A stretch of 64,000 nt of DNA from Schizochytrium sp. TIO01 (Eukaryota > Sar > Bigyra > Thraustochytrida > Thraustochytriidae): NCBI GenBank assembly GCA_004764695.1, contig SMSO01000014.1, positions 7,058,029-7,122,028 on the forward strand, in the 5' to 3' direction. Positions 17,580 to 44,012 of this stretch are shown piece by piece (the stretch's first letter is position 1; each line of letters opens with the position of its first letter). The translations under genes and the position numbers were made by a program. The notes under the pieces are model-generated. The model worked only from the letters and a program-made list of their open reading frames with translations. It was not told the DNA's origin and made no database searches.

Positions 17580-17761
17580 GCTGCGTGTAGCACTCCCCTA
17601 GCGCACCCCGCGGCGGCGGCGGTTCCACCTTAAAGTTGGCGATTTTGGTTTTCTCTTAGATTTTAAACTACAAAATTTGCAAAACTTGCATTTCATAGAA
17701 GGAGCTAAGACTCCATCACGGACTAGTTAGACTAACCCGCGACTCAATGAAATGATTTTTT
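17580..17761 (-). ncRNA. Candidate guide (fRNA/omegaRNA) region at element right end
   Basis: In TnpB and Fanzor elements the guide RNA scaffold lies at and beyond the 3' end of the nuclease gene, ending at the transposon right end. Position is the only strong evidence. On the minus strand I see short inverted repeats: GTTAG-T-CTAAC (about 17726-17736) and GGAG-TCTTAG-CTCC (about 17703-17716). A GC-rich stretch lies at about 17600-17626. The 3' boundary and fold are unknown. Confidence 0.35.
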
Positions 17762-19213
17762 TTAAATCATGTCCTTGGATAGGTAGCGTAAAAGGATGCC
17801 TCTTGCGGCATGGACATCACGGTCTGCTACATGGTTGCACTTGAGATTAGGGCATTGGAAAACCTTGGATGCCCCGAGTTTATGGTGGAGGGTACCGCAC
17901 TCATTGCATGTTTTTGAAGTGTAGCTCTCTTGGCAAAGAACAAGCTTGCACCACGGGAACATCTCAGCCTTATGAATGAGAGCCTGGCGGAACCCAAAAT
18001 GGGACCAACGACACATCATTCGAACAGACTTCTTGGATATCCGTCGCTCCATCCTCCTGCTCATCTTAGAGGTTTCGAATTTGGGCAGGAGAATAACACG
18101 ATAGTTTTCACAAAGCCAAAGCGCGAGCTTGCGGTGAATCTCAGTGATCTTGTTCTTGATCTTGAGTTGGGCGCGATAGAAGGCGCGCTTCAAGGGGGTG
18201 TTGAAATCGTATGCAGTTTTCTTTTTATTTTCTTGAGCTTTATCAATCCTGCTTTGGATCTTATCAACGCGGCGACAGAGATAGAATATGGTTCTAAAAT
18301 CTTTCCCTGTGCCCCATTCAATGGCGCGGCCATCAGCATCATACATCGTCTGAAACGAGCGAACACCTGGATCTAGAGCAATGACACTGTGGTGCGCCTT
18401 GGGTGCCTGGTCCATTGGACGCTTTTCTTCTTCTCGTAAGAAGCAGAAGTACACATGCCCAAGGCGATTCATTTGCACACGCATGGCGTTCTTAATCTGA
18501 CTGGGGAACTTTTCTTTGCGCGTACGAAACTCTTTTAGAAAGCTGGTGGTCTTTGATTTCTCCGTATTCCAGATACGTGCGTTCACTTCGAAAATCTGTG
18601 ATTCATCACGCTTGGTCCGAAACTTATAAAAAGATTGCTCATGAACTTTCTTTTGTACAGCGAGTTCTTCGTTTTTGGCTCGTCCAGAGTTAAGAGCCTT
18701 GAAGAAATCCAGAATCCCGGAATCACGGATAGCCTGTGGGACCTCGAGAACCCATTCAGGAGCATCATGCCTTTCTTTAGATCGAACGGCTTTCTTTTCT
18801 CCATAGAGGGCACCATACGTTTGGGGATTCCCATCTTCATCTACTAAAACCTGCTTCGTCTTGGAATCCTTTTTGATGCACGCTTCTTGATGCAATTTGA
18901 TGGCTTCTTCCTCGCCCTTCGCCACGTCTCGGTGAAACGCAACGCCAGTATTGTAGGCTCTTCTAGTGACACCAAACCATTTAAGCAACTGTGTACGCTG
19001 ATCTTTAGTAGGGTATACCCTGACCTTTTTGGCACGGACAAGGTCATATTCTTTCTTGATGGTCTTGCGCGCCTTCGTGCGAGCTCGCTTCTTCCTCGCT
19101 GCGTCGTCGCCGTCTATTTTGCGCTGCTCGTTTTCCGTGATGCGATGCCACAAAGACGGTGATGATTCCGAGGAGGTCTTTGGTGAAGGTGTCTGCGTCT
19201 CCGGCATGTGCAT
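17762..19213 (-). CDS. Fanzor (TnpB-like RNA-guided nuclease), IS607-associated
   Basis: Likely start is ATG at 19213 (or ATG 19207), giving 483 residues. The frame stays open up to 19702 but there it is antisense-frame sequence over tnpA. TnpB/Fanzor proteins are guide-RNA-directed DNA endonucleases. Residues about 38-54 are strongly basic (RKKRARTKARKTIKK) and may act as a nuclear localisation signal. The N-terminal wedge/REC part includes VRVYPTKDQRTQLLKWFG and RRAYN. RuvC-I is IALDPGVRSF (Asp281). At the usual RuvC-II Glu position there is proline (ILLPKFETSKM, Pro377). A glutamate appears in CQESYTSKTC (Glu429), as in Fanzors with the rearranged active site. Zinc-finger cysteines are 436, 439, 454 and 459. 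RuvC-III is ADRDVHAARGI (Asp466). All catalytic positions are present, with no stop or frameshift. It most resembles the Fanzor2 type because of the IS607 partner. Confidence 0.92.
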   Translation of the reverse strand: MHMPETQTPSPKTSSESSPSLWHRITENEQRKIDGDDAARKKRARTKARKTIKKEYDLVRAKKVRVYPTKDQRTQLLKWFGVTRRAYNTGVAFHRDVAKGEEEAIKLHQEACIKKDSKTKQVLVDEDGNPQTYGALYGEKKAVRSKERHDAPEWVLEVPQAIRDSGILDFFKALNSGRAKNEELAVQKKVHEQSFYKFRTKRDESQIFEVNARIWNTEKSKTTSFLKEFRTRKEKFPSQIKNAMRVQMNRLGHVYFCFLREEEKRPMDQAPKAHHSVIALDPGVRSFQTMYDADGRAIEWGTGKDFRTIFYLCRRVDKIQSRIDKAQENKKKTAYDFNTPLKRAFYRAQLKIKNKITEIHRKLALWLCENYRVILLPKFETSKMSRRMERRISKKSVRMMCRWSHFGFRQALIHKAEMFPWCKLVLCQESYTSKTCNECGTLHHKLGASKVFQCPNLKCNHVADRDVHAARGILLRYLSKDMI

Positions 19214-19742
19214 CTTGGCCGTGTACCACGAGTTTGACATTTTTTCTTTCGAAAAGGTGTTCCAGGAGGTCGACTGCGATTCGCGCAAGTCGGTCGCGGT
19301 GCATGACCACAACTTGGCCGATTCCGCCGCGGTCACAGGCGTCCAGTAGGGAGCACAGGCCTTGGCGTTTGAAATTGACCCCGCTACCGATGTCTTTGTA
19401 GACGGCGGAAGCATCTGGGTAGGCGCGCTGGAGATCGCCAACCTGGCGTTCGAGGTCCTCCTTTTGCTTGGCCGAGGACACTCTGGCGTAGATAACGGTA
19501 CATCCAGAGCTGCGTTGCTCGCGGCCGGTGGAACCGCAATCAAAGATGCGCTCAACATCGTCGCAGGCGTAGATGCGCTTGCCTCCGGGGAAGCGCGCGC
19601 AGCGCACGCGTCCGCCATCGGCCCAGCCCCGAAGGGCGCTTGCTGAGACCCCAAACTTCCGGTGAAAGAACTTTGCTGGTTTGTATTCGAGGTTTGCTCC
19701 ACTTGCAGTGTTTGGAGCTTGGCGGTTCCTTGGCCTCCCCAT
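19044..19742 (-). CDS. tnpA: IS607-family serine recombinase (TnpA)
   Basis: 232 residues from ATG at 19742. The N-terminal part (residues about 20-66) is a MerR-like DNA-binding helix-turn-helix: FFHRKFGVSASALRGWADGG and ARFPGGKRIY. The catalytic domain begins VIYARVSSAKQKEDLERQ, with Ser89 the nucleophile next to Arg87. It continues through YKDIGSGVNFKRQGL, VVVMHRDRLAR and LLGIITVFVASHHG, ending in an Arg-rich tail. IS607 recombinases excise the element as a circle and insert it with little target specificity, typically between G residues. The last about 170 bases overlap the start of the nuclease gene in another frame, a compact arrangement. The protein is full length, with all catalytic residues visible, so it is probably functional. 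Confidence 0.93.
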   Translation of the reverse strand: MGRPRNRQAPNTASGANLEYKPAKFFHRKFGVSASALRGWADGGRVRCARFPGGKRIYACDDVERIFDCGSTGREQRSSGCTVIYARVSSAKQKEDLERQVGDLQRAYPDASAVYKDIGSGVNFKRQGLCSLLDACDRGGIGQVVVMHRDRLARIAVDLLEHLFERKNVKLVVHGQDAHAGDADTFTKDLLGIITVFVASHHGKRAAQNRRRRRSEEEASSHEGAQDHQERI

Positions 19743-19814
19743 TTTCTTACCTAACCTCCACTTCTTATTAAAGATCTAACTAAGTATAATATATGATTAA
19801 TATGAAACAAGCAC

Positions 19815-19837
19815 ATCGAAATATAAGTTATCGAAAT
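19815..19837 (-). promoter_or_regulatory. Direct repeat upstream of tnpA
   Basis: ATTTCGAT occurs twice on the minus strand (19837-19830 and 19822-19815), spaced 15 bases start to start, about 75-95 bases upstream of the tnpA ATG. Its position near the expected left end makes it a candidate recombinase-binding site. I found no matching copy at the other end. Confidence 0.25.
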
Positions 19838-20508
19838 TTTAACGGTTTTTGTCATACTGTTCATGAAACGTAGAACAAAGAGAGAGATTTGATATTGGTG
19901 GGTTTTTCCTTTCTCTGCTTTTCTCCTAATTCCGAGCTGCTAGGGCTGCGCTAGGAACTGTTACGGAGGCGATTCCTAGTGCGCAGGTAGATGGCCCCTA
20001 CTGTATCAGGAAAGGTACTAGTAGTAGTAGAGCTTACACTAAAGGGGCTTATGAGAGAGAAGAATTTGAGGCAAGTGCTAGAGTTCCTGATAAGTGACGG
20101 TTAGTGGGTGTTCCTGGGGTATCACCTAGCTAGCCAGTTGGTAAGAAGCACAGTATCTTGGATGCATGCTGGGGCGGGTCAGATTCCGGTGCGAAGGCAG
20201 CGAGGAGCCGTGAACGTGGCACTCGTCGGCCCGTCTCGCTCAGCTTTGGGAGCCATTTTGGGAGCTCGTTCATCGTTCTGGCTAGCCAGAGGGGCATGCA
20301 TGCCACAATCTCCCCATCGATCATCACTAAACCTCTGCAGCAAGCGCAGCACCGTAGTGCCTGCTACGGTTTAGGATAGGAGGGCGAGCATCTACATGCG
20401 CTTGCAATCTGTACCCTCCTGGACTTCGCTACGGAGATGAAGATAGATAGATAATGGAGGCACTTCTAGGGATTAGGATAGGAGGCGCGCAGGCAGCCGG
20501 GAGGGCAG

Positions 20509-22930: not shown

Positions 22931-23140
22931 TGAGCGTGAGAAGGTTTTTCCTGCCTCATATTAAGGTGGCAAGGGCCTAGCGGAGTCCTAGGCGCGGCGG
23001 TAGGCAGCGGTAGACGGGGCTAAGCGCTCCGTTGAGGCGGATACGGCGCAGCAGAACCGCAACTGCAAAGGCGCTTGAGCAAAGAGCAAGAGCAGCGCAG
23101 AGAGAGAGAGAGAGAGCGCGAGGTGAGGCAGACAAAGAAG

Positions 23141-24565
23141 ATGGCAGACGCAGACAAGAACGACAAGAAGGCGGAGGAGGCAGGCGCCGCCGCCGCCTCG
23201 GCCAAGGGCGACGATGGCACGGAGACCAAGGTGTCCGTGGAGGTGAAGGAAGGCGAAGCGAAGGAAGACAAGAAGGAGGAAGAGAAGGAGACCAAGGAGG
23301 ACGCCATGGAGGTAGACGAGGGCAAGGCCAACGGCAAGAAGGAGACCAAGAAGGCCGCACCCAAGAAGGCCGCCGCCGAGAAGAAGGAGAAGAAGGAGAA
23401 GAAGGAGCCCGCAGAGGGCGAGAGGCGCAGTGGACGCTCCCGCAAGCAGGTGGAGCACTTCGCCCCGCCTGAGCCCTCCACCAAGGAGGAGGACGAATTC
23501 GTCGTGCCCAAGGGCAAGGGCATGGCCATCTCCGACATGGAGAAGATCAGCCACTTCCTTAACAAATTCCCCGTCAGCTCTGAGGAGATCCAGGCCCTTC
23601 ACAAGGCCTTCTACGGACGCAAGGGCAAGCGCGATGCCAAGAAGAACGTTCTTGCCTTCAGCGGACTCGTCTACCCTGACGGCAAGGCCGAGGCTGGCCG
23701 CGACAAGGTCTTCAACACTATCGGCGTATGGAAGATCGACTTTCTCCGCGAGATGATGGACAACTTTGGCGTCGACCGTGGCCAGAAGACCAAGAAGGAG
23801 GAGCTCCTCGACACATTCATTGACTGGCTTGAGAAGCCCACCTACGACCCGGAGATGGCTGTACCCGGAAAGGCCAAGAAGGCCCCCAAGAAGAAGGCTG
23901 CTCCTAAGAAGAAGAAGGCTGCACCCAAGAAGAAGGCCGCCGCAGGAACCAAGCGTAAGAAGTCCGAGGCCACCGAGGGCGACAAGGAGGGAGCCGAGAA
24001 GAAGGACGGCGAGGAGAAGCCCAAGAAGAAGGCTAAGAAGGAGACCACCGAGGGCGACAAGCCCAAGAAGGCTGCCGCCAAGAAGCCCGCTGCTGAGAAG
24101 AAGGAGAAGGCACCCAAGAAGGAGGGCGAGGAGAAGCCCAAGAAGGCTGCCGCCAAGAAGCCCGCCGCCGAGAAGAAGGAGAAGGCACCCAAGAAGGAGG
24201 GCGAGGAGAAGCCCAAGAAGGCTGCCGCCAAGAAGCCCGCCGCTGACAAGAAGGAGAAGTCCCCCAAGAAGCCCGCTGCCGAAAAGAAGGAGGCTGCCGC
24301 CAAGAAGCCTGCTGCCGAGAAGAAGGAGAAGGCACCCAAGAAGCCCGCTGCCGAGAAGAAGGAGGGCGCCGCAGAGAAGAAGTCTAAGAAGAAGCCATCG
24401 GACGAGCTCGTTAAGAAGATCAAGGACCGGCTTAAGTCCATCTTTGAGGAGGGCGACAGGGAGAAGCTCACCGTGGCCGCTGTGAAGAAAACAATTAAGA
24501 AGGACATCCCTGAGTCCGCTGATCACACCGCTCTCATTGGCGAGCTCATGAAGGAGCTCCTCTAA
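23141..24565 (+). CDS. DEK: DEK-like chromatin protein with long Lys/Ala/Pro repeat region
   Basis: The ATG at 23141 gives 474 residues; a TTG-started frame from 23075 would add 22. DEK is a nuclear chromatin protein that binds DNA, preferring cruciform or supercoiled forms, and histones. Residues about 1-95 are acidic and Lys-rich. Residues about 96-235 match the DEK core: RRSGRSRKQVEHFAPPEP, LHKAFYGRKGKRDAKK, NVLAFSGLVYP, then a SAP-like helical unit (LREMMDNFGVDRGQKTKKEE, DTFIDWLEKP). Residues about 240-415 are a histone-H1-like tail made of near-identical units such as KKAAAKKPAAEKKEKAPKKE. The last about 55 residues are the DEK_C domain (KIKDRLKSIFEEGDREKLT, VKKTIKKDIP). Codons are nearly all AAG, GAG and GCC, suggesting strong expression. 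The repeat tail is longer than in animal DEK. Confidence 0.92.
   Translation: MADADKNDKKAEEAGAAAASAKGDDGTETKVSVEVKEGEAKEDKKEEEKETKEDAMEVDEGKANGKKETKKAAPKKAAAEKKEKKEKKEPAEGERRSGRSRKQVEHFAPPEPSTKEEDEFVVPKGKGMAISDMEKISHFLNKFPVSSEEIQALHKAFYGRKGKRDAKKNVLAFSGLVYPDGKAEAGRDKVFNTIGVWKIDFLREMMDNFGVDRGQKTKKEELLDTFIDWLEKPTYDPEMAVPGKAKKAPKKKAAPKKKKAAPKKKAAAGTKRKKSEATEGDKEGAEKKDGEEKPKKKAKKETTEGDKPKKAAAKKPAAEKKEKAPKKEGEEKPKKAAAKKPAAEKKEKAPKKEGEEKPKKAAAKKPAADKKEKSPKKPAAEKKEAAAKKPAAEKKEKAPKKPAAEKKEGAAEKKSKKKPSDELVKKIKDRLKSIFEEGDREKLTVAAVKKTIKKDIPESADHTALIGELMKELL
23865..24370 (+). repeat. Coding tandem repeats in the DEK tail
   Basis: Repeated units of roughly 60-75 bases. Those at about 24055-24245 are almost identical, encoding PKKAAAKKPAAEKKEKAPKK. 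This is likely to vary in copy number between strains. Confidence 0.8.
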
Positions 24566-38448: not shown

Positions 38449-40627
38449 CTTTCACTCCGCGCTACAACAAGAACCTCAACGTCCAAGGGGCAGTCCTAGC
38501 TGACTTCACTCCGCTCCTCTCCAAACAAAGCACAAGAACCGCAGGATGCTTGACAAAAACCGGGGTCTGCCAGCGCTTGAAGAAGAGGGCGTCCACCGAG
38601 GTCGGCGAGTTGGTGTGGTCAAACGAGGTTTATTGAAAAAATCAGAGACCGACCCCAGCAGATATTGAGACTACCAAAACAGTCGGCTCTCCTCAAAGTT
38701 GACCACCGCAAACTAAGAACTCTCCTCTCCCAAACGGTCAGCTCTTCTGCGACTCCGACCTCTCTCACGTGTCCGCGTTCACGACTTTAATAGCCAGTGA
38801 TGAGCCGAAGAAAATCAGACATAGGCCCAGAAAGAAAGCCACAAGAAGAAGAGAAAAAGAAATTAAAAAAGGAAAAAGCGTCCTCAAAGAATATCAAAAG
38901 GAGACGGCGCGAGATGAGGAACCCCGGCGGCACGTTCCGCACACCTAGACGATGTATCAGAAAGGTCCAAGTACGTGAAGAACAGGACGCGATGCTGTGT
39001 GCCAGTGCGGTGAGAAACTGATTACCGCTAGTGTGTTACAATGTATGACTCCTTACGCACATGAGGTTTGCTCCAGCGAAAATTGTTTGCTCAGGGATAG
39101 TTTATGACATCTGGTACATTGAATGTTGGTACGTTTTGCTAGATAAGAACTAAAACGAATGCGGTACCTAGTTAGCTCGGATCTAGCACAGAGGTATAGA
39201 CGATCATAATTTTTCTTTCTGGTTGGATAATTCTTCTTGAACATGAAGGTCGTTGTAAATTATAATTTTTCTATCGGTGATACTTTCAATGATGACTTAC
39301 CAAATACAACTGCCAATAAATTAAGCTCCAGCGAAAACTTCAGGCCGTTCCCAGAGAATCCTTAAGCGATGGAACTGCATACTGCTTATCACTACTCGCA
39401 TTTCTCATAACCACCTTTTATTTAATTATATTGTACAGTTCGCTTGAACCCCAAGAGAGATGAGACCGTCCTCATATAAGAAACCAATAGCCTAGGGCCA
39501 TTTGACGTATGCACACAAGGGAAAAGTATCATGGTCTAGTCTCTACAGAAGAAACTACCTTTTAACAAAAACTCCAAAGCCATCTGCAAATCCTTTCTTA
39601 AATTCTGTAGAAAGCAAATACCCCCTTCGCACAAATGAAAACCTTCGACTTCATTAGTTTTCAAGTTATAAAAATGTCTTTCTCTAGTTCACTTGGACGT
39701 GATATTTAGCAATATTATGACTCTTATGATTGTTTCCCATGAACTACTATATTTTGGTCTCTATTCGTTAACTTAAATTCCCCTGCCTTACCTTGGCATC
39801 GGCTCAATACCTTAATTCCCCTTCTGTTCATCACATCCTATCATATATTTTGACTATATCAAAGCCAAACCTAACATCCAATGCAAGTCACCGCGCCAAT
39901 AGCTTCAAGTATTTGTGTACCTCCTTCGCTCTTTTCCCACCCTCAAATCACAAAAGAATGTTAATATACAGCACACCTGTACTTCGCTTTCTCGGATTCA
40001 ATTCGTGAGTTGACGGTTTCCAATAAAATCATTGCATATATCTTAGTTCCATACTTCCCTCTCTGAAAGCAAGCGGATCAGTTTTCCCGGAGTGATCATC
40101 TTCAATGCAACCATCGGCACGGTATCCAGCCAACCAGCCAATAGAGCTGGAAATACTTTCTCTTCGGAATCTTCCTTCAATGGAATACACTGCGCGCTAG
40201 ATCTGATTTGGTAGAATTTCAGTACTACTCATATTAACACACATTAACAAATACTGCTATTACGTTGCGGTGCAACTTCAAGATTTCTCATTCTTTTAGA
40301 AACTCCCGCAGAAAATGCCACTATGTGAAAGCGGCGAAAAAAAGAGATTGCCCATGATTCCTTGGGAGTAGTTCGTAGCATGGTTGTTTAAGCATCCTCA
40401 CCAATGCATATAAGAACTATCTACCCAAGTTTGTGATAACATTGTATATAAAAAGGTGCATGGGTTGAAACATCTCGAGTCTGAAGAATCATTCCTTTAA
40501 GCGGCAAAACCAAAACTCGAACACACCAAACAAGTGACTTCAAAGCAACAATCAAGCTTCTAAAGAATATAACACACATCAACTTAGACTATTCACCCAA
40601 GCAATACCCTTTACTCAACAACATAAA
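38449..40627. other. Intergenic; includes decayed 5' copy of the SDR duplication
   Basis: No gene is supported in 38449-40000. From about 40030, patches match 42535-43130 at an offset near 2504 (for example CGGATCA at 40074/42579, GGCGAAAA near 40333/42838), showing that the SDR tandem duplication unit includes upstream DNA. Confidence 0.5.
40444..40455 (+). promoter_or_regulatory. Possible TATA box of SDR gene 1
   Basis: TATATAAAAAGG lies about 180 bases upstream of the ATG. The corresponding place in copy 2 is only weakly TATA-like. Confidence 0.35.
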
Positions 40628-41566
40628 ATGAAGGTCTTCGTCACCGGTGCTAGCGGATGGGTCGGCAGCAAGGTCACCCAACTCCTCATCCAACAAGGTC
40701 ATCAAGTCACCGGACTTGCACGCTCTGACAAGTCTGCCGAGCGAGTTAAGAACCTTGGCGCCGAACCTGTTCGTGGAGGCCTCGAAGACCTCGATGTGAT
40801 CAAAGCCGCCAGCAAAGATGCAGACGCAGTCATCCACACTGCATTCAACCATGAAGATTTTAACAAGTATGTCGAGAACTGCGAAATCGATCGCAAGGTC
40901 ATCAGCGCCATGCTCGACGCTCTCTCAGGCTCTGGCAAGACATTGGTTGTCGCCACAGGTCTCTACGGACTTGGCGATGAGGAGTCTATGGCCGAGACCA
41001 CAGGAATCAAGGGCATCCGAGGTGCCACAGAGCCCATGTTGCTTGAGCGTGGTGAGAAGGAGAACATCCGTGTTGCTAGCGTGCGCTTGCCTCCAACTGT
41101 ACACGGCGTAGGTGACCAGGCATTCCTCAAGATCCTCAACGGGTTTGCGCAAGCCGCCCAGGTATCTCCGTATGTGGGCGACGGTAGCAACCGCTGGGGT
41201 ACGGTGCACCGTGATGATGCTGCCAATGCATTTGTGTTGGCCTTGACCAAGGGTCCTGCTGGTCAGAGGATTCATGCTGTCGCCGAAGAGGTTTCATTCA
41301 AGGACATCGCAGAGGTGCTAGGAGCAAACCTTAAAGTGCCTGTGAAATCTGTAAGTCCGGAGGAGGCAGCTCAACATTTCACATTCTTGACTCCGTTTGT
41401 GACAAGTAAGTACACAGCCCCGACTGAGATTACACGTGCGCGTCTTGGATGGGAGCCTAAAGGTCCTGGATTGCTTGAGGACCTCCGCAATCCCAAATAC
41501 TTTGGTACTCCTAATAAGAAGCGTAGCATCTTCTCGTTCTTGTTCAAAAGAAGGTCAAGCAAGTGA
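40628..41566 (+). CDS. Atypical SDR (NAD(P)-dependent epimerase/dehydratase-like), copy 1
   Basis: 312 residues from ATG at 40628. The N-terminal Rossmann motif is VTGASGWVGSKVTQLL (T-G-x-x-G-x-x-G of extended and atypical SDRs), followed by TGLARSDKSAERV and a GGLEDLD segment. DADAVIHTAFNH marks the end of strand 4. The SDR Tyr-x-x-x-Lys pair is not in classic form: the region reads TTGIKGIRGATEP, so this belongs to the atypical group, often annotated as epimerase or 3-beta-HSD-like. Substrate binding is likely through RWGTVHRDDAANAFVLAL. It ends in an extra tail (KKRSIFSFLFKRRSSK) absent from copy 2, basic with a short hydrophobic core that could attach to a membrane. Role unknown; redox or isomerase chemistry is inferred. 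Confidence 0.9.
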   Translation: MKVFVTGASGWVGSKVTQLLIQQGHQVTGLARSDKSAERVKNLGAEPVRGGLEDLDVIKAASKDADAVIHTAFNHEDFNKYVENCEIDRKVISAMLDALSGSGKTLVVATGLYGLGDEESMAETTGIKGIRGATEPMLLERGEKENIRVASVRLPPTVHGVGDQAFLKILNGFAQAAQVSPYVGDGSNRWGTVHRDDAANAFVLALTKGPAGQRIHAVAEEVSFKDIAEVLGANLKVPVKSVSPEEAAQHFTFLTPFVTSKYTAPTEITRARLGWEPKGPGLLEDLRNPKYFGTPNKKRSIFSFLFKRRSSK

Positions 41567-43130
41567 ATAATAAACATAGATTGTATGAAAGTAGGCAGAG
41601 CCATTATCCCTAATTGATTTTTACTTTTAATTCATCAAAATACATTTCTTCTGTTTTTATGATATTGTGATAGTAAAAGTACAACTCTCTGCTTTTGTTA
41701 CAGCTACACCTCCACTATTTTGATAAAAACGCCTGTTATCTGAGCCACAATATTGAAAGATTTTATTATAACAGGCCTATTTCACTAACCCTTAAGGTAC
41801 ATCCGAGTGGGCTATTTGAAAATTGCAGTAGCTATACTATTAGCTTGTTCTTGACTACCTATAACGTTAGTGAAAGTATAGTGAAGGAATACTACGTTCG
41901 TGTGGAGACCTCATGACGCCGAAAGCAAATAGATTCTCATGTAGCTACCTACTTCCTGTGAGTTTGGTTAGATTGGCCCACAGTTTAGTTGATTAGCGAA
42001 CGGATCAATTTGGCGTGTCTCTAATTAGTTGCACTAAAGCAACACTAAACTTGCTTAACAGATTTTAGGCTAGAATGACCAGGCCGAACCACATCCTGGA
42101 AAACATGTATTGCTTGTTCATACTGTCGAATTGTTTTCGTTTATCCACATTTGACAATGCCCATGGCTTGTTTTCGCCAACGAATTTGGTACCAAGACAT
42201 AATAATTACTGCCAAACTTCGGCAGCAGCAGAAATTTTGCCCTATTTAATCTTTTAAAAGATCAGTTTAAAAAAAATAAGAATATCTAGAGGCTTATATA
42301 AATCACAAATAACAACAACAATAATAGTTGTAATGATACTAACATGAAATTCGGTTTCTTCAAGCTCGATTTTTTAAGAAATCTTATGGGTTTCTCTTTC
42401 CAGTTTCTATGCCCATGTATCCCGAAGATTACTTTACTTTTCTCCCAACACCTAACAGAGGTGCAGATTTTCTCAATATTGCAAACTTCACACTTTCTCT
42501 CGGGTGTGTCTTTCAAGTCGCCGACTTTATGCGAGAGATCATTGTTTGTTCCGTATCTATAGCTTGTTTGCTAGAAGCCGGATCAATCTATTTCTCTGTT
42601 CACTCTTTGCGAATCCACCTGTATCTTTCCAGCCAACCAAAGCTGAACTGACTTCTCCTGCGGAGCTTGTTGGAGCAATAACTTAGGGTGTTACCTGTAA
42701 CTAGCTATATTTGATACCCACTTTTATTAGTATGTTACTACTAGTATGACGTTGCGGCGAAAATCAAAAATTTGCCATTTTCTGATAACAATTTTAAAAT
42801 GTTTTGTTAATAAAATATTCCATGATTTAATACCCACGGCGAAAAGAAGAGATTCACCAAGATTTCTCGGAAGTAGTAGAACATAACTAGGCACTTGTGT
42901 TGATGCAGTTGAGCACTACCAAGAGCAATCGTTCACAGTAGAAGTAACATCAATCATGATGCTACAGAAATGTATATTGAATAGAAGTATCGATTCCAAG
43001 GGGAATAACAAAACCAAAACTCGAACGCACCAAACAAGCAACCCCAAAGCAACAATCCAGCTTCCCAATATATTACATACGTCAACTTAGACTATTCACC
43101 CAAGCAATACCCTTTACTCAACAATATAAA
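41567..43130. other. Intergenic between SDR copies
   Basis: AT-rich. From about 42535 it aligns in patches with the region upstream of copy 1, and the last about 110 bases are highly similar to the leader of copy 1. No gene is seen. Confidence 0.5.
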
Positions 43131-44012
43131 ATGAAGGTCTTCGTCACCGGTGCTAGTGGATGGGTCGGCAGCAAGGTCACCCAACTCCTCATCCAACAAG
43201 GTCATCAAGTCACCGGACTTGCTCGCTCTGACAAGTCTGCAGAGCGAGTTCAGAGCCTCGGCGCCAAACCTGTTCGTGGAGGCCTCGAAGACCTCGATGT
43301 GATCAAAGCCGCCAGCAAAGATGCAGACGCAGTCATCCACACTGCATTCAACCATGAAGATTTTAACAAGTATGTCGAGAACTGCGAAATCGATCGCAAG
43401 GTCATCAGCGCCATGCTCGACGCTCTCTCAGGCTCTGGCAAGACGTTGGTTGTCGCCACAGGTCTCTACGGACTTGGCGATGAGGAGTCTATGGCCGAGA
43501 CCACAGGAATCAAGGGCATCCGAGGTGCCACCGAGCCCATGTTGCTCGAGCGTGGTGAGAAGGAGAACATCCGTGTTGCTAGCGTGCGCTTGCCTCCAAC
43601 TGTACACGGCGTAGGTGACCAGGCATTCCTCAAGATCCTCAACGGGTTTGCGCAAGCCGCCCAGGTATCTCCGTATGTGGGCGACGGTAGCAACCGCTGG
43701 GGTACGGTGCACCGTGATGATGCTGCCAATGCATTTGTGTTGGCCTTGACCAAGGGTCCTGCTGGTCAGAGGATTCATGCTGTCGCCGAAGAGGTTACAT
43801 TCAAGGACATCGCAGAGGTGCTAGGAGCAAACCTTAAAGTGCCTGTGAAATCTGTAAGTCCGGAGGAGGCCGCCGCACATTTCACATTCTTGACTCCGTT
43901 TGTGACAAGTGAGTACACAGCCCCGACTGAGATTACACGTGCGCGTCTTGGATGGGAGCCTAAAGGTCCTGGATTGCTTGAGGATCTTCGCAATAAAGAA
44001 TACTTCGCATGA
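43131..44012 (+). CDS. Atypical SDR, tandem copy 2
   Basis: 293 residues from ATG at 43131, nearly identical to copy 1. I count about 15 amino-acid differences in the shared part, clustered in residues about 38-48 (ERVQSLGAKP versus ERVKNLGAEP) and the last 60 residues (VTFKDI, AAAHFTF, SEYTAP). The centre, about codons 50-220, has identical protein and almost identical DNA. The protein stops at RNKEYFA and lacks the basic tail of copy 1. The same Rossmann motif and family apply. Relative to copy 1 it may differ in localisation because of the missing tail. Confidence 0.9.
   Translation: MKVFVTGASGWVGSKVTQLLIQQGHQVTGLARSDKSAERVQSLGAKPVRGGLEDLDVIKAASKDADAVIHTAFNHEDFNKYVENCEIDRKVISAMLDALSGSGKTLVVATGLYGLGDEESMAETTGIKGIRGATEPMLLERGEKENIRVASVRLPPTVHGVGDQAFLKILNGFAQAAQVSPYVGDGSNRWGTVHRDDAANAFVLALTKGPAGQRIHAVAEEVTFKDIAEVLGANLKVPVKSVSPEEAAAHFTFLTPFVTSEYTAPTEITRARLGWEPKGPGLLEDLRNKEYFA

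Follow-up and report, generated by a model that had tools for sequence, protein, structure and literature searches.

The 64,000-nucleotide stretch of the Schizochytrium sp. TIO01 genome analysed here (contig SMSO01000014.1 of assembly GCA_004764695.1, positions 7,058,029 to 7,122,028; hereafter the window) carries on its minus strand a 2.2-kb element of the IS607 type, in which tnpA, encoding a serine transposase, and the gene of a Fanzor2 nuclease overlap in different reading frames. Judging from sequence comparisons and predictions, we consider it likely, with a probability of roughly 0.85, that this is an active eukaryotic IS607/Fanzor2 transposon with nested genes, in which an N-terminal domain of the nuclease (the N-domain) is dual-coded inside tnpA. 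The features of the element are the following.

17653 to about 19859, minus strand: IS607-type element, with ends set where copies with different flanks cease matching.
About 19859 (left end, CAG TATGACAAAAACCG...) and 17653 (right end, ...AATCTAAGAG), minus strand: terminal sequences, from comparison of copies.
19044 to 19742, minus strand: tnpA, IS607 serine transposase of 232 residues with Ser89, from profile and domain matches and alignment to solved structures.
17762 to 19558, minus strand: Fanzor2 (TnpB-like) nuclease of 598 residues, starting at an AUG kept by related copies.
17762 to 19750, minus strand: nuclease frame from stop to stop, 662 residues, as an open frame.
19618, minus strand: additional upstream AUG in the nuclease reading frame.
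19202 to 19363, minus strand: putative dual-coded N-domain, nuclease residues 66-119 (CAPYW...NSWYTA), in the +1 frame within tnpA, based on stop depletion, synonymous conservation, predicted fold and retention in relatives lacking an intact tnpA.
17653 to 17761, minus strand: candidate omega-RNA (reRNA) scaffold from the nuclease stop codon to the right end, based on fold z-score and pairing.

The transposase matched the NCBIfam model of IS607 transposases (NF033518) with 143.7 bits against a cut-off of 110, covering model positions 3-187 of 187, and contains a Pfam Resolvase domain. Ser89 of its YARVSSAKQ motif aligned with the solved IS607 catalytic domains, and the protein has the N-terminal helix-turn-helix (HTH) and catalytic serine of an IS607-type recombinase. 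The nuclease contains the Pfam TNB zinc-ribbon and HTH_OrfB domains and shows the HTH, RuvC and zinc-ribbon features of TnpB; its closest solved structure is the mimivirus Fanzor2 L79 (PDB 9b0l). The RuvC and zinc residues D396, E544, C551, C554, C569, C574 and D581 are all present in the 598-residue protein and are invariant or nearly so in a 67-row alignment, of which 25 locus rows were chosen by motif, making their conservation partly a matter of construction. The other 42 rows, comprising the window protein and its protein matches, were chosen by length, and W72 is present in every one of them. According to Yoon et al. (2023, PMC10711439), Fanzors and pro-Fanzors can be told by a DPG motif and by an alternative glutamate located six residues ahead of the zinc finger. 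Since the window nuclease has both the RuvC-I DPG (D396-P397-G398) and the alternative glutamate E544 ahead of the first zinc cysteine C551, it carries the motifs of a Fanzor2, and it groups with Fanzor2 and pro-Fanzor proteins by fold (best PDB match) as well as in a 64-row tree, for which three of the 67 alignment rows without the core pattern were dropped. An earlier reading of the sequence alone (the sequence-only reading) had proposed an intact IS607-type transposon with a Fanzor nuclease, made up of two overlapping minus-strand frames that encode a full serine recombinase with Ser89 in YARVSSAKQ and a TnpB-like protein with complete RuvC and zinc-finger residues; the profile matches, the open frames at 19044-19742 and 17762-19750 and the catalytic residues agree with it on each point. 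It had placed the element at 17580..19860, which is right for the element and slightly off for its ends. The overlapping frames were thus already seen, and it is the selection on the overlap itself that is the most interesting part.

In the window, the Fanzor frame crosses the whole of tnpA in +1 with 0 stops, where synonymous shuffling expects 3.2 (P 0.0085). The relatives used for this stop test were filtered for overlap, and the key tests were repeated on a set of loci divided by the DPG motif. These loci came from viral contigs (34), prokaryotic genomes (best 80 of 234) and further IS607 tnpA searches, the comparison resting on them instead of on the eukaryote-like relatives, which are 45-48% identical. 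After 14 of 104 loci with a tnpA of at least 170 residues had been dropped for lacking a downstream frame of 300 residues or more, redundancy removal left 66 loci, all with an intact tnpA and a long frame behind it; these were split by DPG alone and not by outcome. The nuclease frame lies in +1 over at least 65% of tnpA (65-100%) in 46 of 46 loci with DPG, as compared to 2 of 20 loci without it. In tnpA codons 75-190 of the DPG-bearing loci, 0 stops were found in +1 where synonymous codon draws gave 152.2, while the +2 frame had 381 against 366.2 expected; the loci lacking DPG had 133 stops in +1 against 153.1 expected. Depletion in codons 5-75 of the DPG-bearing loci was partial (32 versus 60.3 expected), and this stretch may often precede the true nuclease start or encode linker only. 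Among TnpAs that are 35-50% identical, the identity of fourfold-degenerate third bases was 0.438 versus 0.271 expected in the loci with DPG and 0.262 versus 0.251 in those without. In a set of 48 overlapping loci, 8 of which had been included on account of their overlap, third bases of pairs with no more than 50% identity matched at 0.26-0.34 in the first ~90 columns of the alignment and at 0.89 over ~15 codons where the nuclease frame reads NSWFS. Stop depletion in the second frame and reduced synonymous change in the first were hence both found, the latter among relatives, and as far as computation on these sequences can show, both frames are under selection in the relatives. Short overlaps of tnpA and tnpB are known in ordinary IS607 elements, in agreement with the loci lacking DPG. 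Four of these overlap tnpA by larger fractions (L179, 0.35; L180, 0.38; L059, 0.90; L065, 1.00); the first two as partial overlaps, and also L059 and L065, are left out of the 16 canonical controls used below.

The core of the N-domain follows the pattern P[FY]W...S..L...T.TD...NSW[FY]. It is retained in loci where the tnpA frame has stops (four in L106, eight in L135) and in two where no tnpA was found (L056 and L068). Applied strictly, the pattern was matched in 9 of 11 loci with broken tnpA, in 3 contig-edge loci and in 4 of 14 loci in which no tnpA was found, although it also misses 22 of 54 loci with intact tnpA, some with a visible NSWF. An AlphaFold2 model built from the 67-row alignment had a mean pLDDT (predicted local distance difference test) of 83.8, with block values of 68-92 in residues 71-120, while residues 1-60 lie below 45 and are disordered. 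In the structural comparison, which yields first and last aligned residues only, the alignment to the mimivirus Fanzor2 starts by pairing residue 68 of the model with residue 53 of the chain, its first resolved one; alignments to the TnpB chains 8exa, 8h1j, 8bf8 and 8iaz start at 171-173. No Pfam family matched the N-domain alone, and its profile gave only a chance-level match in the PDB (E 1.5). By sequence and predicted fold, the N-domain (PFW...S..LW..T.TD...NSWF) is a feature of Fanzor2 and pro-Fanzor proteins that is missing from ordinary IS607 TnpBs, and the case that the mimivirus Fanzor2 shares it is good but not final. As a separate observation, an early tnpA frameshift in L115 and L130 swaps the frames, with nuclease-like residues in the tnpA frame before the shift and an intact N-domain after it.

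We infer that the full-length nuclease is made in the host and that its start is reached by leaky scanning past the tnpA AUG. Of 14 copies examined, 11 have an AUG of the nuclease frame (at +124 or +172) as the first one after the tnpA AUG, which suits leaky scanning; in the three copies bearing the insertion described below, this first AUG lies in the TnpA frame, inside the insert. The context of the tnpA AUG is strong (AAGAAAATGG), which does not suit it. A nuclease-frame ATG occurs within 75 nt of the tnpA start in 39 of the 48 overlapping relatives and in 7 of the 16 controls, and an ATG at +7 in 9 of 48 and 0 of 16, respectively. In cyanobacterial loci such as L060, L118, L134 and L162, the tnpA start reads ATGNNNNATG or close to it, which puts an ATG of the nuclease frame 7-10 nt downstream of the ATG of tnpA. 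Another candidate start, at the Tyr-Ala motif of TnpA, was rejected, as an ATG occupies that place in 18 of the 48 overlapping loci and in 7 of the 16 controls; no Shine-Dalgarno match was seen upstream of it in the 18 loci. The best surviving alternative is that +1 ribosomal frameshifting or splicing joins the two frames into a TnpA-Fanzor fusion with the DNA-binding N-terminus of TnpA. The constant +1 relation in the 46 DPG-bearing loci would fit such a product, as would the window's nuclease frame, which is already open 8 nt before tnpA begins and has no AUG between the tnpA AUG and +124. Nevertheless, we regard a fusion as unlikely, since a separate start is easily had from the ATG near the tnpA start of those 39 relatives, often only 7-10 nt away, and since loci without tnpA keep the N-domain without any TnpA part. 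Two splicing signals were considered and discarded: a 5' splice site just before tnpA, where the GTAAG is not kept in all copies, and a spliceosomal intron in the tnpA of some copies, where the 294-bp insert has no GT-AG ends and is a dispersed repeat instead.

Several results weigh against a dual-coded N-domain. In the overlap of 15 host copies, Fanzor-synonymous changes showed no excess (~12 observed, 12 expected), so that over this short time scale no selection for the Fanzor frame shows up; the same copies have an excess of TnpA-synonymous changes there, in small numbers. Only those 4 of the 14 loci with no tnpA found match the N-domain pattern, the other 10 including distant TnpBs and truncated matches. 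The N-domain profile alone fails to find mimivirus L79 by sequence, leaving the range of the structure alignment and a weak, partly HTH-driven profile match as the link to it. For the candidate omega-RNA, covariation was not above that of shuffles (97/500; 16 distinct copies). The lack of a Fanzor-synonymous excess would also be expected if the open frame were a by-product of base composition and TnpA constraint, with the nuclease starting near the end of tnpA, and the GC-rich tnpA of the window (0.58), in which stops are rarer, points the same way. This explanation is nonetheless very improbable: shuffles that preserve the TnpA protein and its codon use still expect 3.2 stops in the window and 152.2 in codons 75-190 of the 46 loci, most of which have a GC content of 0.38-0.50, the +2 frame is not depleted, third-base conservation is highest at the nuclease motif, and the N-domain outlives tnpA in relatives. 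A DNA or RNA signal in tnpA (a promoter, recombination or regulatory site) could account for conservation that peaks at 0.89 in one stretch of ~15 codons, yet it is a shade less credible still, as it would neither clear every +1 stop across 115 codons nor persist as protein-level similarity without tnpA in L056 and L068, nor fold confidently as a protein segment.

Dual coding therefore remains our preferred explanation of the overlap, and the same DNA would specify both the catalytic domain of the transposase and the N-domain of the nuclease. As all IS607 elements share tnpA and the TnpBs without DPG lack the overlap, the transposase would have come first and the nuclease domain second. It is about an even call whether the N-domain then arose by overprinting tnpA in +1 and was inherited by the Fanzor2 lineage, including forms in which tnpA was later lost, with the overlap forcing both genes to evolve and move together and, in eukaryotes, one mRNA giving both proteins by leaky scanning.

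The host context was examined in the assembly of 64 Mb in 37 contigs, where the window lies on a contig of 7.46 Mb; among named organisms, the thraustochytrid Hondaea fermentalgiana has the protein most similar to a metallopeptidase encoded nearby (62% identity). In this genome the element has at least 62 DNA matches (40 of 199 candidates scored) and at least 101 protein matches (88 of 334 candidates scored), in line with the further copies that the sequence-only reading had suggested looking for, and because of these many matches the element is not a chance finding. Twenty-two loci, spread over 11 contigs of 1.1-9.0 Mb, were read together with the DNA on either side, which agrees with the eukaryotic genome that had been proposed. 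Copies 99-100% identical to that in the window occur at other places with different flanks, on several chromosome-scale contigs. These comparisons support recent activity of the family in a thraustochytrid-like nuclear genome.

Eight of the 22 loci (L009, L010, L011, L012, L014, L015, L016 and L019) have both frames open, the nuclease of L016 having a different C-terminal end, and in 6 (L013, L018, L021, L022, L023 and L024) the nuclease is open and tnpA damaged. Seven copies (L013, L018, L022, L023, L024, L027 and L030) have a tnpA nonsense change in common, which is a change of Glu to Asp in the nuclease frame, and five of them (L022-L024, L027 and L030) also a 294-bp repeat insertion in tnpA. 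Equally damaged copies at different sites indicate that copies with a defective tnpA have been mobilised, presumably with TnpA supplied by intact ones, and that, going by these copies, a TnpA-defective, Fanzor-intact subfamily has spread as well. A marine eukaryote transcriptome (mmetsp) yields the predicted protein P0003, which carries the N-domain and over 601 residues shares 99.2% identity with the L023 member of this subfamily, so that such a copy is transcribed in the organism of the window or a close relative. Across the 15 host copies, the overlap has 46 changes in 696 nt and the nuclease core 167 in 1279 nt, half as many per site in the overlap; in the core, 98 nonsynonymous changes were counted against 119.9 expected and 67 synonymous ones against 40.1, from which the core appears to be under mild purifying selection. 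The 294-bp insert itself has a TAACC tandem and 41 matches, five pairs of which lie ~5.2-5.4 kb apart, so it resembles a long terminal repeat; it sits upstream of an open Fanzor frame, which it might drive. The young copies L010, L015 and L017 have older, decayed members of the family 25 to ~500 bp away, by chance or through a site preference.

The sequence-only reading had left room for either recent arrival or activity, and for a giant virus or bacterial donor. The activity holds, on account of the near-identical copies at other sites; a single recent arrival fits less well, since many copies at all stages of decay speak for long residence with renewed activity. In the tree, the window copy and the near-identical transcriptome protein fall within a clade of 13 rows (support 100/100) that includes a dinoflagellate protein and stands apart from the cyanobacterial rows, and the cyanobacterial pro-Fanzor relatives are 29-36% identical in the best segment (best 80 of 234 loci). 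Scans of IMG/VR with the window protein and with P0118 found no relative, and a profile scan gave the 34 viral-contig loci, with best segments 22-49% identical and none close. An intact major capsid frame of nucleocytoplasmic large DNA viruses (NCLDV; PF04451, 107 bits) was noticed elsewhere in the assembly (G000 contig C9:26919-27449), and no Terminase_6N was found in the host genome. A recent arrival from a giant virus or bacterium, or contamination of the assembly, is thus highly improbable even though giant viruses and cyanobacteria hold relatives with the same gene order and one NCLDV capsid frame lies on contig C9, given that the copies are spread over the 11 contigs, many of them decayed, that none of those listed is on C9, that no close viral relative emerged from these scans and that the tree position is with eukaryote-derived rows.

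The ends were aligned by eye for the 22 loci side by side, and neither terminal inverted repeats nor a target-site duplication nor any repeated flank was seen. The right end reads CTA[AG]GAG in 19 of 20 compared copies, followed in those 19 by A or T, and the left end is CAG in 14 of 19 alignable copies. IS607 inserts through exchange at a matching dinucleotide, GG in IS607 itself, as described in PMC6188088. Here AG is present at both ends (left CAG; right AAGAG) and is a likely core dinucleotide for the TnpA exchange. By analogy with the IS607 family, TnpA would most likely excise the element and insert it without target duplication, and, as in work on TnpB and Fanzor, Fanzor2 would most likely bind the right-end omega-RNA and cut the empty site, upon which the element would be copied back; host DNA below 17653 would serve as the guide. 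The 109 nt after the nuclease stop had a fold z-score of -3.56, with 1 of 200 shuffles as good, and 96.0% of the 425 cells in its stems pair across 16 distinct copies; an Rfam scan of the window gave 0 matches at the gathering threshold. From what is known of its relatives, the nuclease probably uses this right-end RNA. Apart from the element, the window contains two tandem, nearly identical NAD-epimerase-like open frames (40538-41566 and 42981-44012) and a lysine/alanine-rich open frame with a tandem repeat array (23036-24565).

Fanzor2 in IS607 elements of eukaryotes and viruses was already known (PMC3627910; PMC10711439), and N-terminal extensions of Fanzors were noted by Saito et al. (2023, PMC10432273), as far as the available portions of these papers go. 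In such portions of PMC3627910, PMC10711439, PMC10432273, PMC11061315 and PMC6188088 we found no mention of an N-terminal extension inside tnpA, and literature searches, covering mostly open-access work so that an earlier mention elsewhere is possible, returned no report of a nuclease domain nested in tnpA. The new point, as it emerges from the sequences, is the putatively dual-coded N-domain nested in tnpA and common to bacterial and viral relatives. If this is true, pro-Fanzor and Fanzor2 constructs or annotations that start after tnpA miss a conserved folded domain, whose loss could bear on the activity of such nucleases as tools. It would also be a clear sequence case in which a domain shares the DNA of a partner gene and is conserved in bacteria, on viral contigs and in eukaryotes, explaining why TnpA and the Fanzor-type TnpB lineage could stay linked and posing the question of how a second frame is translated in eukaryotes. 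In addition, TnpA-intact beside TnpA-defective copies would offer a natural system for what Fanzor adds to transposition.

Among known systems, the closest to the element are the Fanzor2 nucleases that IS607-like elements of eukaryotes and viruses carry (Bao and Jurka, 2013, PMC3627910; Yoon et al., 2023, PMC10711439). Going by the accessible parts of these papers, it shares with them an IS607 serine recombinase beside Fanzor2, the DPG and alternative RuvC glutamate, the absence of terminal inverted repeats and target duplication, and many copies in a eukaryotic genome, and differs in the nested N-domain, of which those parts make no mention, and in its TnpA-defective, Fanzor-intact subfamily that has spread. 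The mimivirus Fanzor2 (L79, 9b0l) is 17-19% identical to the window nuclease. Cyanobacterial pro-Fanzor TnpBs (Yoon et al., 2023) resemble it in DPG, alternative glutamate and nested genes, although their loci often have an ATG for the nuclease frame 7-10 nt past that of tnpA, which the window lacks. The canonical IS607 TnpBs of the Chloroflexota-group and cyanobacterial loci without DPG have the same order, tnpA then tnpB, but overlap by at most 0.14 in 16 of 20 loci and show no depletion of +1 stops. In conclusion, the window element is a new member of the IS607/Fanzor2 kind, set apart by its nested, putatively dual-coded N-domain.

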